A stretch of 64,000 nucleotides of DNA. Origin: Edaphobacter sp. GTDB taxonomy: Bacteria > Acidobacteriota > Terriglobia > Terriglobales > Acidobacteriaceae. The stretch is from assembly GCA_025462755.1 (NCBI GenBank), contig JAOAPF010000447.1:22328-86327 (forward strand). Direction: 5' to 3'. Positions within the stretch are counted from its first letter, which is position 1; each line of letters opens with the position of its first letter. This document shows positions 44,884 to 61,265 of the stretch, one piece after another. The notes below the pieces were generated by a model. It saw only the letters and a list, made by a program, of their open reading frames with translations, was not told the DNA's origin and did no database searches. The translations under genes and the position numbers were made by a program.

Positions 44884-44953
44884 AGCCACAGAACCGGGTG
44901 CCCCATATCTCGATTCTGAGATGTGGGCATCGTGCGAAGCACGACCGCACTCC
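44884..44953. repeat. 70-bp direct repeat, copy 1 (two-hairpin element)
   Basis: AGCCACAGAACCGGGTGCCCCATATCTCGATTCTGAGATGTGGGCATCGTGCGAAGCACGACCGCACTCC. Confidence 0.95.
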
Positions 44954-45101: not shown

Positions 45102-45171
45102 AGCCACAGAACCGGGTGCCCCATATCTCGATTCTGAGATGTGGGCATCGTGCGAAGCACGACCGCACTCC
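45102..45171. repeat. 70-bp direct repeat, copy 2
   Basis: Identical to 44884-44953 over 70 bp. Confidence 0.95.
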
Positions 45172-51655: not shown

Positions 51656-52297
51656 ATGAGACTTTCGAAGCTCTGGTTCAGCCTCGTCGCCATCGTCGTT
51701 CCCTCGCTCCTGTTAGTCTCGCCGGCATTCGCCGACACCTATAGCGTAGTCAACCTGGGAAGCGATGAAGGCCGACTCGTCTATGGAATGGATGCCTCCG
51801 GCAATGTGGTTATATCAGTCGACGCTGACGGCAACGGCAAATGCACTATCGTCGCCAACTGCTACAAAATTTTCGTCAATGGTGTACTGGCCTTTAGCAC
51901 CGATGCGCCGCCCGTCTTTACCATCGATGATGGAACACCATGCAGCCCCGCCGTGCCCCCCGGACTCACCGTGCTTCACGCCGTTTGTAACAATGGCCGC
52001 GAAGTATTTTCGGCCAGAGCCCCAGGGCAGATCTTCCCCGACCTGTACACCGGCCCCAATCTCGTGGACCTCTTCCCCGGTCAAGGCGCAGGCAACTTCC
52101 TCTATCTGAACTCAGAGGGCGACATCGTCTGGAACGACCCTCTCCGCGAATTCTGGTTCGAAGCCTTCGATCTAGCCTCGCAGGTGCCTGAACCGGGCAG
52201 CTTGTTCTTACTAGCAACAGGTGCACTGGCAGCCGTAGAAACCATACGTCGCCGCGCGCTACTCCGCACCGCAGTTACGGAACCACGTTCAGCGTAA
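51656..52297 (+). CDS. PEP-CTERM sorting-domain protein
   Basis: Signal peptide MRLSKLWFSLVAIVVPSLLLVSPAFA; C-terminus VPEPGSLFLLATGALAAVETIRRRAL. Confidence 0.7.
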   Translation: MRLSKLWFSLVAIVVPSLLLVSPAFADTYSVVNLGSDEGRLVYGMDASGNVVISVDADGNGKCTIVANCYKIFVNGVLAFSTDAPPVFTIDDGTPCSPAVPPGLTVLHAVCNNGREVFSARAPGQIFPDLYTGPNLVDLFPGQGAGNFLYLNSEGDIVWNDPLREFWFEAFDLASQVPEPGSLFLLATGALAAVETIRRRALLRTAVTEPRSA

Positions 52298-55200
52298 TCT
52301 CATTCGACTTCACCACCGCCTTCGTCGCCGGATCGACCCGCGACACTCGCACCGTGTACCGGCCCGGCCTGCTCAGATTCACCAGCCGAGCCAGGTGCGC
52401 CGTCTGCGCCGTCGACATTCCCGGCTGCACATAATCCACTGACCGGCCCTCCGTCTGCTGACGCACCCGCGCCTCGCGAGCGTACTCCGTTTCCTCCACC
52501 TCGCGGCCCGCCGCATTCCGCACGTCGATCCTGTACGAAAACTCCGGATTGTTCGTCCCCGGACGATGAGCAAACAAAATCTCATGATCCGACGTGTTGC
52601 TCAGCGTAATGACGATCCGTGCATCCGCCCCCACCTGCACCTCATCGCTCGGGGCGCTGATCTCAATCTGGAACGAAGCGCGGCCGTCTCCGTTCGGCGG
52701 CGGCTTGTCCTTCGGGATCGCCGAAGGCGCAGCCGGCAGAGGAGCAACAGGAGCCTCTGGTTCGGCCGCAGCCGGAGCCTTACCCCGCTTCGGAGCGCGC
52801 TCCACCGCAGCCGGCGGAGCCTCCGTCTTCTCCGGCCCCGACTTGTCCTCTTCCATCTCCGCAGGTCGCGACACTCCCACCCTCGTGTCGGACATCCTGG
52901 TGCTGGGCGAACTGATGCCGGACGAACCCGTCTGCGCCCTCGGCGCGACACGCACCCCAGGCGCCCCATAACCGCCTTCGGCATAGGCGTTCGTCTTCGT
53001 CCACCGGTCGCACCAATCCCCCACCGTCTCATACCAGAGCTTCGAGTTTTGCGGCTTCAGGATCCAATGCCCTTCGTCAGGAAAATAGAGCATCTTGCTC
53101 GGCACATTCAGCCGCTGCAGCGCAGTAAAAAGTTGGAATCCCTCCGATACATCCAGCCGGTAGTCGCGCTGCGAATGAATCACCAGCGTCGGCGTCTTCG
53201 CGTTCCTGATCGACAGCATCGGAGACCACTTGCGGAACGGATCCTGCGCCGCAGGCCTGTCGAAGTAGTTCCACGGCTGCGCCGGCATCGGGTCCAGCGT
53301 CGCCTTAGCCGGGCGCCCTTTGCCCCCAGCCACCACGCTGGGCTCGCGGAACTCCCACTCGTTGAACCAAAGTTCTTCGGTAGCGCCATACGCGCTCTGC
53401 GGATTGAACAGCCCATCGTGCGTCACGATGCACGCAAACCGGTTCGTATGGGTCAGAATCCAGTTCGCCATAAATCCGCCATAACTGGCCCCCAGCGCAC
53501 ACTCCCGCGTCTTGTCGATATACGGAAACAGCTTCTCCGCATAGTCCAGGCCCTTCATCAGATCGACATACGCCTTCCCGCCCCAGTCGCCGTTCACGCC
53601 ATCGACAAACGCCTGCCCATACCCCGTCGACCCGCGAGGATTCACCATCACCACGACATATCCGCTCGCCGCCATCAGCTCCGCATTCCACCGGTAGCTC
53701 CACGCATCGCCCCACGCCCCCTGCGGCCCCCCATGAATCAAAAACTTAACCGGATACTTCCTCGTCTCATCGAAGTTCGGCGGTCGAACAATGAAACCCT
53801 CCACCGGCGTTCCACCCGCGCCAGGAAAACGGAACGTTCCCTGTCCCGATAGATCAAGCGTGCCGAGCAACGCATCGTTCAAGTGGGTGAGCTGCCTTCG
53901 CGGGCTCGATCCCCCCACCTCCAGCGTTCCAAGAATCGAAAACTTCGCAATGTCGGCGGCCTGCTTTGCCTCCGCGGGCGAGCCCGCTTCCACGGCCTGC
54001 GCCTCTTCGGTTAAACCCGGGGCTATCGCGTTGATCTCGCCCGGCTGGTCAACGCTCATCCGCGTCGCAACCAGATTATTTCCATCAAAGCTGAGTTGCA
54101 GATCGGAGAACTCACCGTCCGTCGTAATCGGTTTGAACGGATTCTCCGGCTCGCCCTCAAACTGGTAGCGCAAAACTGCGGTTCGGCCCGCATCGCCGCT
54201 CGCAATGTAGACCGCCTTCGAATCCGGACCCCACACAAACTCGTCTACCCACCGGTCGAACTTGGGCAGGAGCTCCTCAACCTTCATCGTCTCCCGGTCC
54301 AACACCATCAAGCGGAACCGGTCGCTCTCATACCCGGCCCGCGCCTGCGACCGGAACGCCAGGTACTTCCCATTCGGCGAATAGGCCGGTCCATCATCGC
54401 TTCCCGGACTCAGCGAAGCCTTCAACGGCCTCGCCCCCGGAGTATCCAGCCGCAGCGTAAACACATCGTTATTCGTGCTCGCCGCCGGAACAAGATCAAC
54501 ATTGGTTACAAATGCAATCTCCTTCGAGTCCGGAGCCCACGCATATCCCACCGGCCCCCCAAGCGAGAAAGGCGGCGCCTCCGCATCCCCAATATCCTCC
54601 CGCGGCGTCAGATCGCGCACCGCGTTCCCATCCGTCGCCGACACCACCAGCACATGGCTCCGCTTCGGCCCCACATAATCATTCCAGTGCCGGTACAGCA
54701 GATGGTCCCAGGTCTGCGCCTTCACTGGATTGGCCGCAGCCTCAGCATCCTTTCTCTTGTCGCAGTTGTCCTCCTCCACCCACGAGGACCCCTGGCTGCA
54801 CTCCGGATACACCCGCGACGTAAACAGAATCCGCTGCGAATCCGGCGACCACACTGCCCCGCCCGCCTCCGTGCTCACGTTGGTCAACCGCCGCGGCGTC
54901 CCCAGCGTTCCCTGCGCTTCATTCCACAAGGCAAGATAGATCTGCGACGACGTCCCACCATCCTCCGAGACAAACAGCACCTGCTTTCCATCAGGCGAAA
55001 ACCGTCCGCCCGCTTCCCCCTCCTTCCAGAACGTTATCTGGTGCTCGGCCCTGCTTTTTTGTTTGTCATTGCGTGACGCACTTTGTGTGTCATTCCGCAG
55101 CGCAGCGGAGGAATCTGCTTCTCTCCCACTGCCATCCGCCATCGGCACCACCCAAAGGTGATTCACCCTCAAATTCTTCGCCAGGTCCACCTCCGTTGCC

Positions 55201-55385
55201 GAAAACATCACCCACTTGCCCGACGGAGAGATCTGCGGATCGCTTACCCGCTTCATCTTCTGCAGATCCGCAAAGGTCATTGGCCGTCTACCCGACACAT
55301 CACCCGCCCCCTGTGCCGAACCCCCGACCCACGCACCGGCGCATGCTGCGGCCAGCAGACCTGTGGAAACCAATCCATTCCTCAT
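52275..55385 (-). CDS. S9-family (prolyl oligopeptidase-like) peptidase with C-terminal beta-sandwich-like extension
   Basis: FLIHGGPQGAWGDAWSYRWNAELMAASGYVVVMVNPRGSTGYG; GASYGGFMANWILTHT; DEGHWI; then P/A-rich linker and RASFQIEISAPSDEVQVGADARIVITLSNTSD domain. Confidence 0.88.
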   Translation of the reverse strand: MRNGLVSTGLLAAACAGAWVGGSAQGAGDVSGRRPMTFADLQKMKRVSDPQISPSGKWVMFSATEVDLAKNLRVNHLWVVPMADGSGREADSSAALRNDTQSASRNDKQKSRAEHQITFWKEGEAGGRFSPDGKQVLFVSEDGGTSSQIYLALWNEAQGTLGTPRRLTNVSTEAGGAVWSPDSQRILFTSRVYPECSQGSSWVEEDNCDKRKDAEAAANPVKAQTWDHLLYRHWNDYVGPKRSHVLVVSATDGNAVRDLTPREDIGDAEAPPFSLGGPVGYAWAPDSKEIAFVTNVDLVPAASTNNDVFTLRLDTPGARPLKASLSPGSDDGPAYSPNGKYLAFRSQARAGYESDRFRLMVLDRETMKVEELLPKFDRWVDEFVWGPDSKAVYIASGDAGRTAVLRYQFEGEPENPFKPITTDGEFSDLQLSFDGNNLVATRMSVDQPGEINAIAPGLTEEAQAVEAGSPAEAKQAADIAKFSILGTLEVGGSSPRRQLTHLNDALLGTLDLSGQGTFRFPGAGGTPVEGFIVRPPNFDETRKYPVKFLIHGGPQGAWGDAWSYRWNAELMAASGYVVVMVNPRGSTGYGQAFVDGVNGDWGGKAYVDLMKGLDYAEKLFPYIDKTRECALGASYGGFMANWILTHTNRFACIVTHDGLFNPQSAYGATEELWFNEWEFREPSVVAGGKGRPAKATLDPMPAQPWNYFDRPAAQDPFRKWSPMLSIRNAKTPTLVIHSQRDYRLDVSEGFQLFTALQRLNVPSKMLYFPDEGHWILKPQNSKLWYETVGDWCDRWTKTNAYAEGGYGAPGVRVAPRAQTGSSGISSPSTRMSDTRVGVSRPAEMEEDKSGPEKTEAPPAAVERAPKRGKAPAAAEPEAPVAPLPAAPSAIPKDKPPPNGDGRASFQIEISAPSDEVQVGADARIVITLSNTSDHEILFAHRPGTNNPEFSYRIDVRNAAGREVEETEYAREARVRQQTEGRSVDYVQPGMSTAQTAHLARLVNLSRPGRYTVRVSRVDPATKAVVKSNEITLNVVP
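55050..55128. repeat. GTCATT/GCAGCGCAGCGGAG-type interspersed repeat inside the S9 peptidase CDS
   Basis: GTCATTGCGTGACGCACTTTGTGTGTCATTCCGCAGCGCAGCGGAGGAATCTGCTTCTCT; 28-nt core 55097-55124 matches 60999-61026 with 2 mismatches. Confidence 0.75.
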
Positions 55386-60726: not shown

Positions 60727-60965
60727 ACGCGACAGTGTCGCACACCGCCCCCAGCCCGCAAAAATTCACAACCTGCCTATCCCCACCCAAACTTTGTCAT
60801 TCTGCGTATCCTCGCTATCCACCCAAATTTTTGCCATCCTGAGCGAGGCATTCGCGCACCTTGCGAACGGCGAGTTCGAAGGACCCGCGATCGCCTTTGC
60901 TTGTGCGGTTGCCATTGCTTTTGCTTTTGCCGTGCCCGTCCTCTTCCACCCAAGCCAAAAGACCG

Positions 60966-61030
60966 TCATTTCGACCGAAGCTGCTCACGCCTTTGTGAGC
61001 AGCGCAGCGGAGAAATCCGCTTCTCTACCT
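60966..61030. repeat. GTCATT/GCAGCGCAGCGGAG-type interspersed repeat (intergenic copy)
   Basis: GTCATTTCGACCGAAGCTGCTCACGCCTTTGTGAGCAGCGCAGCGGAGAAATCCGCTTCTCT. Confidence 0.75.
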
Positions 61031-61129: not shown

Positions 61130-61265
61130 GTCACCTCCCAGGAAGAGCACACCTTGAAGGGTGTGCCGAAAACCCAGTTACCTCCAGGAAGAGCACACCT
61201 TTAGGTTGTGCCGAAAACCCAGTCACCTCCCAGGAAGGGCACACCTTTAGGTGTGCCGAAAACAA
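61130..61265. repeat. 45-47-bp tandem repeat x3
   Basis: GTCACCTCCCAGGAAGAGCACACCTT(GA/TA)GG(G/T)TGTGCCGAAAACCCA, each with a GCACACC...GGTGTGC dyad. Confidence 0.9.

Follow-up and report, generated by a model that had tools for sequence, protein, structure and literature searches.

A short palindromic repeat of Acidobacteriaceae appears to have landed repeatedly in frame in protein genes, encoding a disordered, apparently harmless peptide

Introduction

A short palindromic repeat scattered between genes appears, from the sequences, to have landed repeatedly in frame within protein-coding genes, where it would be translated as a disordered, apparently harmless peptide. The case that we follow is a secreted peptidase in a stretch of 64,000 nt from Edaphobacter sp. 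(GCA_025462755.1, contig JAOAPF010000447.1), here called the window.

Rickettsia and Wolbachia supply the best-known examples of in-frame palindromic repeats, for which genome decay together with small populations is the usual explanation. A comparable process can now be described in free-living soil bacteria with large genomes. Closely related species show filled and empty sites, apparently recurrent hits on one loop and a marked preference for a single reading frame. Two old questions thereby become testable in culturable strains: how a repeat can move when no transposase is obvious, and what determines whether a protein can accommodate a selfish peptide. A literature search with the element sequence gave no match. 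We found no report of in-frame palindromes in Acidobacteriota, which is weak evidence as mostly non-subscription literature was covered.

Results

The following features of the window are used below.

52275..55385, minus strand: host gene, S9 (prolyl oligopeptidase) family secreted peptidase, 1036 aa
55050..55124, minus strand: repeat-derived in-frame insert of 25 codons, translated READSSAALRNDTQSASRNDKQKSR, residues 88-112
55089..55118, plus strand: full repeat unit core GTCATTCCGCAGCGCAGCGGAGGAATCTGC, a TGTC-tagged imperfect palindrome with T-rich tails outside it
55065..55088, plus strand: truncated half-unit GTCATTGCGTGACGCACTTTGTGT, exactly 24 nt upstream of the full unit
60965..61026, plus strand: intergenic relative with a longer internal hairpin (GTCATTTCGACCGAAGC-TGCTCAC...GTGAGCA-GCGCAGCGGAGAAATCCGC)

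The host gene has a signal-peptide-like N-terminus, a PD40 propeller (PF07676) and a Peptidase_S9 domain (Pfam PF00326, E=4.9e-53), and its catalytic motifs GASYGG, HSQRDYRLD and DEGHW are all intact. Structural matching of the model places its fold with S9 carboxypeptidases and acylaminoacyl peptidases, the top match being the S9 carboxypeptidase 8wt1. Preceded by the signal peptide and the conserved RPMTF motif, the insert is flanked by the strand NHLWVVP on one side and QITFWKEG on the other, and the protein reads ...VVPMADGSG-READSSAALRNDTQSASRNDKQKSR-AEHQITFWKEG.... The initial annotation had described this arrangement from the sequence, and the ORF translation gives the same reading: VVPMADGSG, 25 repeat-derived residues, then an open frame. 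Its span of 55050-55128 was right at the start and 4 nt too long at the end, which lies at 55124. In an AlphaFold model built with 36 orthologues (mean pLDDT 71.6), residues 85-110 have pLDDT<50, and this stretch comes after strand 72-81 of the first propeller blade. By this model the insert forms a flexible external loop of that beta-propeller blade; the suggestion that it might be a loop of the propeller was borne out in the model, where the loop is disordered.

The core in the window shows no difference from the consensus of 141 copies. The half-unit at 55065-55088 encodes most of the SASRNDKQK part of the insert, and the full-plus-half composite recurs elsewhere: a half-unit lies at exactly 24 nt in 11 of 140 copies, with other spacings scattered. 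The insert consists of a full unit of ~42 bp plus the 24-nt half-unit and is therefore almost wholly repeat DNA. A perfect match to the sequence GCAGCGCAGCGGAGGAATCTGC lies at 55097-55118 and one with 2 mismatches at 60999-61020; shuffles gave 0 matches. Recomputing the core match reported at 60999-61026 returned the same 26 of 28 bases. The 60999 copy was considered as the source of the insert and rejected, being a different hairpin variant.

In its own genome, the 18-mer core has 48 copies at <=2 mismatches, mostly intergenic, and the 30-mer core has 28 at <=3 mismatches; the controls (reversed, for the 18-mer) gave 0 in both cases. Across a class-wide sample of 299 genomes, matches were patchy and confined to 4 of 106 genera, which belong to a single family; the controls gave none. 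It is a repeat of Acidobacteriaceae that is most abundant in the Edaphobacter/Granulicella group. The consensus from 141 distinct copies is TTGTCATTCCGCAGCGCAGCGGAGGAATCTGCTTTT with T-rich outer flanks, and its TGTC tag is conserved at 98-99% per position; this census drew on selected loci and is biased to good matches, so perfect ones are over-represented. The unit of ~42 bp has a 7 bp stem beginning with AT, a 3-nt bulge, a 6-nt loop and the tail CTGC. Its outer arms covary: 119 copies have ATTCC/GGAAT, 9 have ATCCC/GGGAT and at least 2 have ATTTC/GAAAT. The basic single-unit hairpin is no more stable than shuffles (z = -0.6), so the palindromic nature of the repeat rests on stem covariation only, and a strong single-unit hairpin was dropped from consideration.

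The intergenic relative at 60965-61026, whose 5' half is GTCATTTCGACCGAAGC plus TGCTCACGCCTTTGTGAGCA, does form a strong DNA hairpin (z = -4.0), and the same variant occurs at two other loci (L019, L026). The intergenic stretch also holds, downstream of it at 61141-61263 on the plus strand, a further type of short palindrome (GGAAGAGCACACCTT-n-GGTGTGCCGAAAAC) in three copies arranged head to tail; several repeat families thus share this island. A second palindromic family, CCCACATCTCAGAATCGAGATATGGGGCACCC, has two perfect copies elsewhere in the window (44896-44927 and 45114-45145, minus strand) and 22 copies in the own genome at <=3 mismatches.

The nearest peptidase orthologue in the tree (G071/L062, 74% identity) lacks the insert and has the short loop VVPIDGSGAGRQERQVTF, reading VVPIDGSGAGRQERQVTFWKEGE; its genome has no copy of the repeat. 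Comparison with orthologues had been proposed as a check, and its outcome favored an insertion: the peptidase of this repeat-free genome lacks the 25 residues. The ancestral loop is short across the genus, for example VVPLKGGQERQLTFWKEGE in G001, and many other orthologues have a short loop too. Those with longer loops mostly hold recognizable copies of the window's repeat or of another repeat. Nine genomes besides the window have the element in this loop (G014, G017, G024, G028, G031, G065, G066, G075, G076), and its orientation and frame (KADSSAALRNDKQK) are identical in all carriers, the window included. The G031 element is a variant with another internal hairpin, and the loops of G014 and G065 hold two units. 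The second of these two (L036/L069) is flanked on both sides by GAGCGGCAG, possibly a 9-nt duplication made where the element inserted, and a 6-nt in-frame deletion inside it distinguishes the two strains.

Other repeats occupy the same site: SFDELRTGSS...SAQDDKQK in G034 and a third repeat, EPMSQKRDMGHP, in G006. Several unrelated palindrome families use one peptidase loop, which could mean that the loop is a genuinely preferred target and not just passively tolerant. The G009 peptidase has the element near the N-terminus, not in the loop. A match to the CCCACATCTCAGAATCGAGATATGGGGCACCC family in G017 (C60:21890-21921) lies between the ends of that genome's S9 peptidase gene.

On a quick tree inferred with the loop removed, the ten carriers require at least five state changes, counted without regard to their direction, and the loop element is present in at least five lineages, the window included. 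Between lineages, the four-fold sites of the carriers' peptidase genes show 57-74% identity (95% between the sister strains G014 and G065), whereas the 30-nt element cores differ at 0-2 bases among peptidase carriers. The copies are therefore either young or homogenized by conversion with intergenic copies. Taken together, the sequences argue that insertion into the peptidase loop is recurrent rather than one event.

Parsimony is blind to gain versus loss, and much the same pattern would be expected from one old insertion followed by losses and gene conversion. The strongest competitor is accordingly a single insertion in the ancestor of the genus, with many later losses and with DNA kept uniform by gene conversion with intergenic copies. 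It would account for the loop, orientation and frame common to all carriers, and the E. lichenicola subclade has flanks that look common to its members (PAD-x-x-G-KADSS), as a single event there would leave them. Against it, the short ancestral loop is found in the nearest orthologue of the window gene and on many basal branches; the flanks vary by clade (ADGSGR|EADSS, GSHNA|KADSS, GGTP|DSS, GGGVGA|EADSS); and a different gene, PriA, has a clearly recent insertion in a single clade. We consider this history unlikely.

Other genes hold in-frame copies as well. We called in-frame copies verified where Pfam or NCBIfam confirmed the host gene among the 141 copies of the census. A search for SAALRND peptides in other genes, a further check proposed at the outset, was positive, with verified in-frame copies in RecG, PriA, PepN and others. 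Copies in the ADSSAALRND frame are found in RecG (one site in G000, G014 and G024, a second in G012), PriA (G014), an N-terminal extension of PurF (G014, G017), a propeller/phosphoesterase protein (one common site in G017 and G010), PepN, TlyA and MnmG. The PurF copy, lying in a terminal extension, could in principle precede the true start. Copies in the SFRSAAEESA frame are found in GH57 (own genome) and a NuoG-like protein. Long ORFs over an element were not all taken as coding: those at L194, L195, L210 and L020 had no Pfam match and were rejected.

With the S9 peptidase counted, 9 of 11 gene-sites use the same one of five open frames (P about 1e-4, corrected for frame choice). The favored frame encodes KADSSAALRNDKQK, which at GRAVY -1.61 is the most hydrophilic of the five and the sole cysteine-free one.

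PriA is the cleanest filled/empty case and, from the alignments, clearly a recent insertion in a single clade. Only the sister strains G014 and G065 have the element; nine other genomes, 91-97% identical in the helicase part, are without it, and in G024, for example, GVGAEG runs straight into KKHAHEH. Beside the element in the two sister strains (L313/L314), the linker of PriA has gained a tandem peptide repeat (NRTMHAQE/DTTLHAQE), with a copy number that is not the same in these nearly identical strains.

One segment of MnmG is filled differently from genome to genome: by the window's repeat in G024, by a CCCACATCTC...GAGATATGGGGCACCC palindrome in G028, and in G063, G076 and G000 by insertions that are repeat-like. 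The segment, which follows EVVDLIVED (L312 in the own genome; L310, L306), varies strongly across the genus and is full of in-frame inserts that resemble repeats, a second hotspot. In the own genome (L312) its in-frame insert is HDAHLSAMKPREDGAP, and the CCCACATCTCAGAATCGAGATATGGGGCACCC family is in frame in MnmG of G028.

Discussion

The reading that we favor, and hold to be very probable, is that a copy of the TGTC-tagged repeat of ~42 bp lies in a surface loop of the peptidase as one outcome of repeated insertion and selective survival, and that its peptide is disordered and has no required function. Some copying activity would spread the repeat, with insertions recurring. Selection would remove most insertions into genes. 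Survivors would be those whose length is a multiple of three, that have landed in a terminal extension, a linker or a flexible loop, and that are read in the frame giving the very hydrophilic, cysteine-free peptide KADSSAALRNDKQK. The encoded peptide would then be a disordered, apparently harmless decoration with no required function.

As to the copying activity, Y1_Tnp genes are absent from the copy-rich genomes G014, G021 and G028 and present in the copy-free genomes G003, G035 and G036, and none of the 30 Y1_Tnp loci examined contains the element. Mobilization by RAYT was rejected on these grounds: copy number does not follow the presence of Y1_Tnp genes, and none of those loci holds the element. 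The resident Y1 (RAYT-type) transposases do not seem to be what copies the repeat.

The insert had initially been called tolerated or domesticated. Domestication would mean that the peptide is kept for a benefit to the enzyme, such as solubility, a substrate gate or oligomerization. Repeated hits on the same loop and the predominance of one hydrophilic frame are what it would lead one to expect. Many orthologues are without the insert, though, unrelated repeats (EPMSQKRDMGHP, SFDELRTGSS...AQDD) fill the same loop, and unrelated proteins bear the same peptide, all of which fits tolerance. Of the two terms we therefore keep the first, and domestication seems to us improbable, somewhat more so than the single ancient insertion. 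Chance resemblance, misassembly or a misannotated start can be dismissed even though the window's assembly is fragmented (553 contigs, 6% contamination), given zero shuffle and control matches, the same insert in the near-complete few-contig genomes G014, G065 and G066 and in the named isolate record E. lichenicola M8UP30 (L086), and its place downstream of the signal peptide and conserved RPMTF motif.

A broader version of the favored reading is that several palindromic families in free-living Acidobacteriaceae keep inserting peptides into the same permissive loops, in housekeeping proteins as well as secreted ones (S9 peptidase, MnmG, the RecG linker), across species, and here we see the chances as evenly balanced. 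If it is true, selfish DNA drives loop diversification on a species time scale, and selection for a hydrophilic peptide picks the frame.

The initial annotation compared the insert to Rickettsia palindromic elements (RPEs), and the analogy holds: copies are in frame in conserved ORFs, absent from some homologues and at a predicted loop site. RPEs occur between genes and in frame in conserved genes, at solvent-exposed positions, with different families at the same or nearby sites (PMC3767692), and WPE-like inserts occur in Wolbachia priA (PMC4224334). Like the Rickettsia and Wolbachia elements, the present repeat is an interspersed palindrome that is both intergenic and in frame inside conserved protein genes. 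Its site is a loop (here by AlphaFold prediction for one protein), and different repeat families occupy the same or nearby sites. The RPE-4/6/7 group has an ATGAC motif and extended copies with repeated ATGAC motifs (PMC3767692); the Acidobacteriaceae unit likewise ends in ATGAC on the gene strand, and its half-units repeat ATGAC, the sequence comparison being one of this motif (PMC3767692). The unit is ~42 bp in contrast to the 100-150 bp of RPEs, and the hosts are free-living soil Acidobacteriaceae rather than obligate intracellular Alphaproteobacteria (Rickettsia/Wolbachia). Filled and empty states mix within one genus here, whereas R. japonica orthologues share their inserts.

GTAG REPs with RAYT (REPINs) are similarly short interspersed palindromes, mostly intergenic with some intragenic copies, but the present consensus has no GTAG tag and no RAYT (Y1_Tnp) locus carries the element.

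The CGTC-tagged REP superfamily (Di Nocera et al. 2013) lists TGTC and CCTC as tag variants and has an 8-9 bp stem beginning with AT, a 4-5 nt loop and a short tail, mostly CCA (PMC3733652). Its members are transposase-free, have known intragenic copies, many in repair genes, and include free-living hosts; they are reported from five phyla, Acidobacteria not among them (PMC3733652). Our repeat shares the TGTC tag, the stem beginning with AT, the lack of a transposase link (Y1_Tnp being the class tested) and intragenic copies that include DNA repair and replication genes (RecG and PriA). It differs in its 7 bp stem, 3-nt bulge and 6-nt loop and in having a CTGC tail instead of CCA. Compared with their published descriptions, it appears to stand apart from all four CGTC families. 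The repeat appears to fit no described family; it behaves like the Rickettsia and Wolbachia elements, and in anatomy it is closest to the CGTC/TGTC-tagged REPs.
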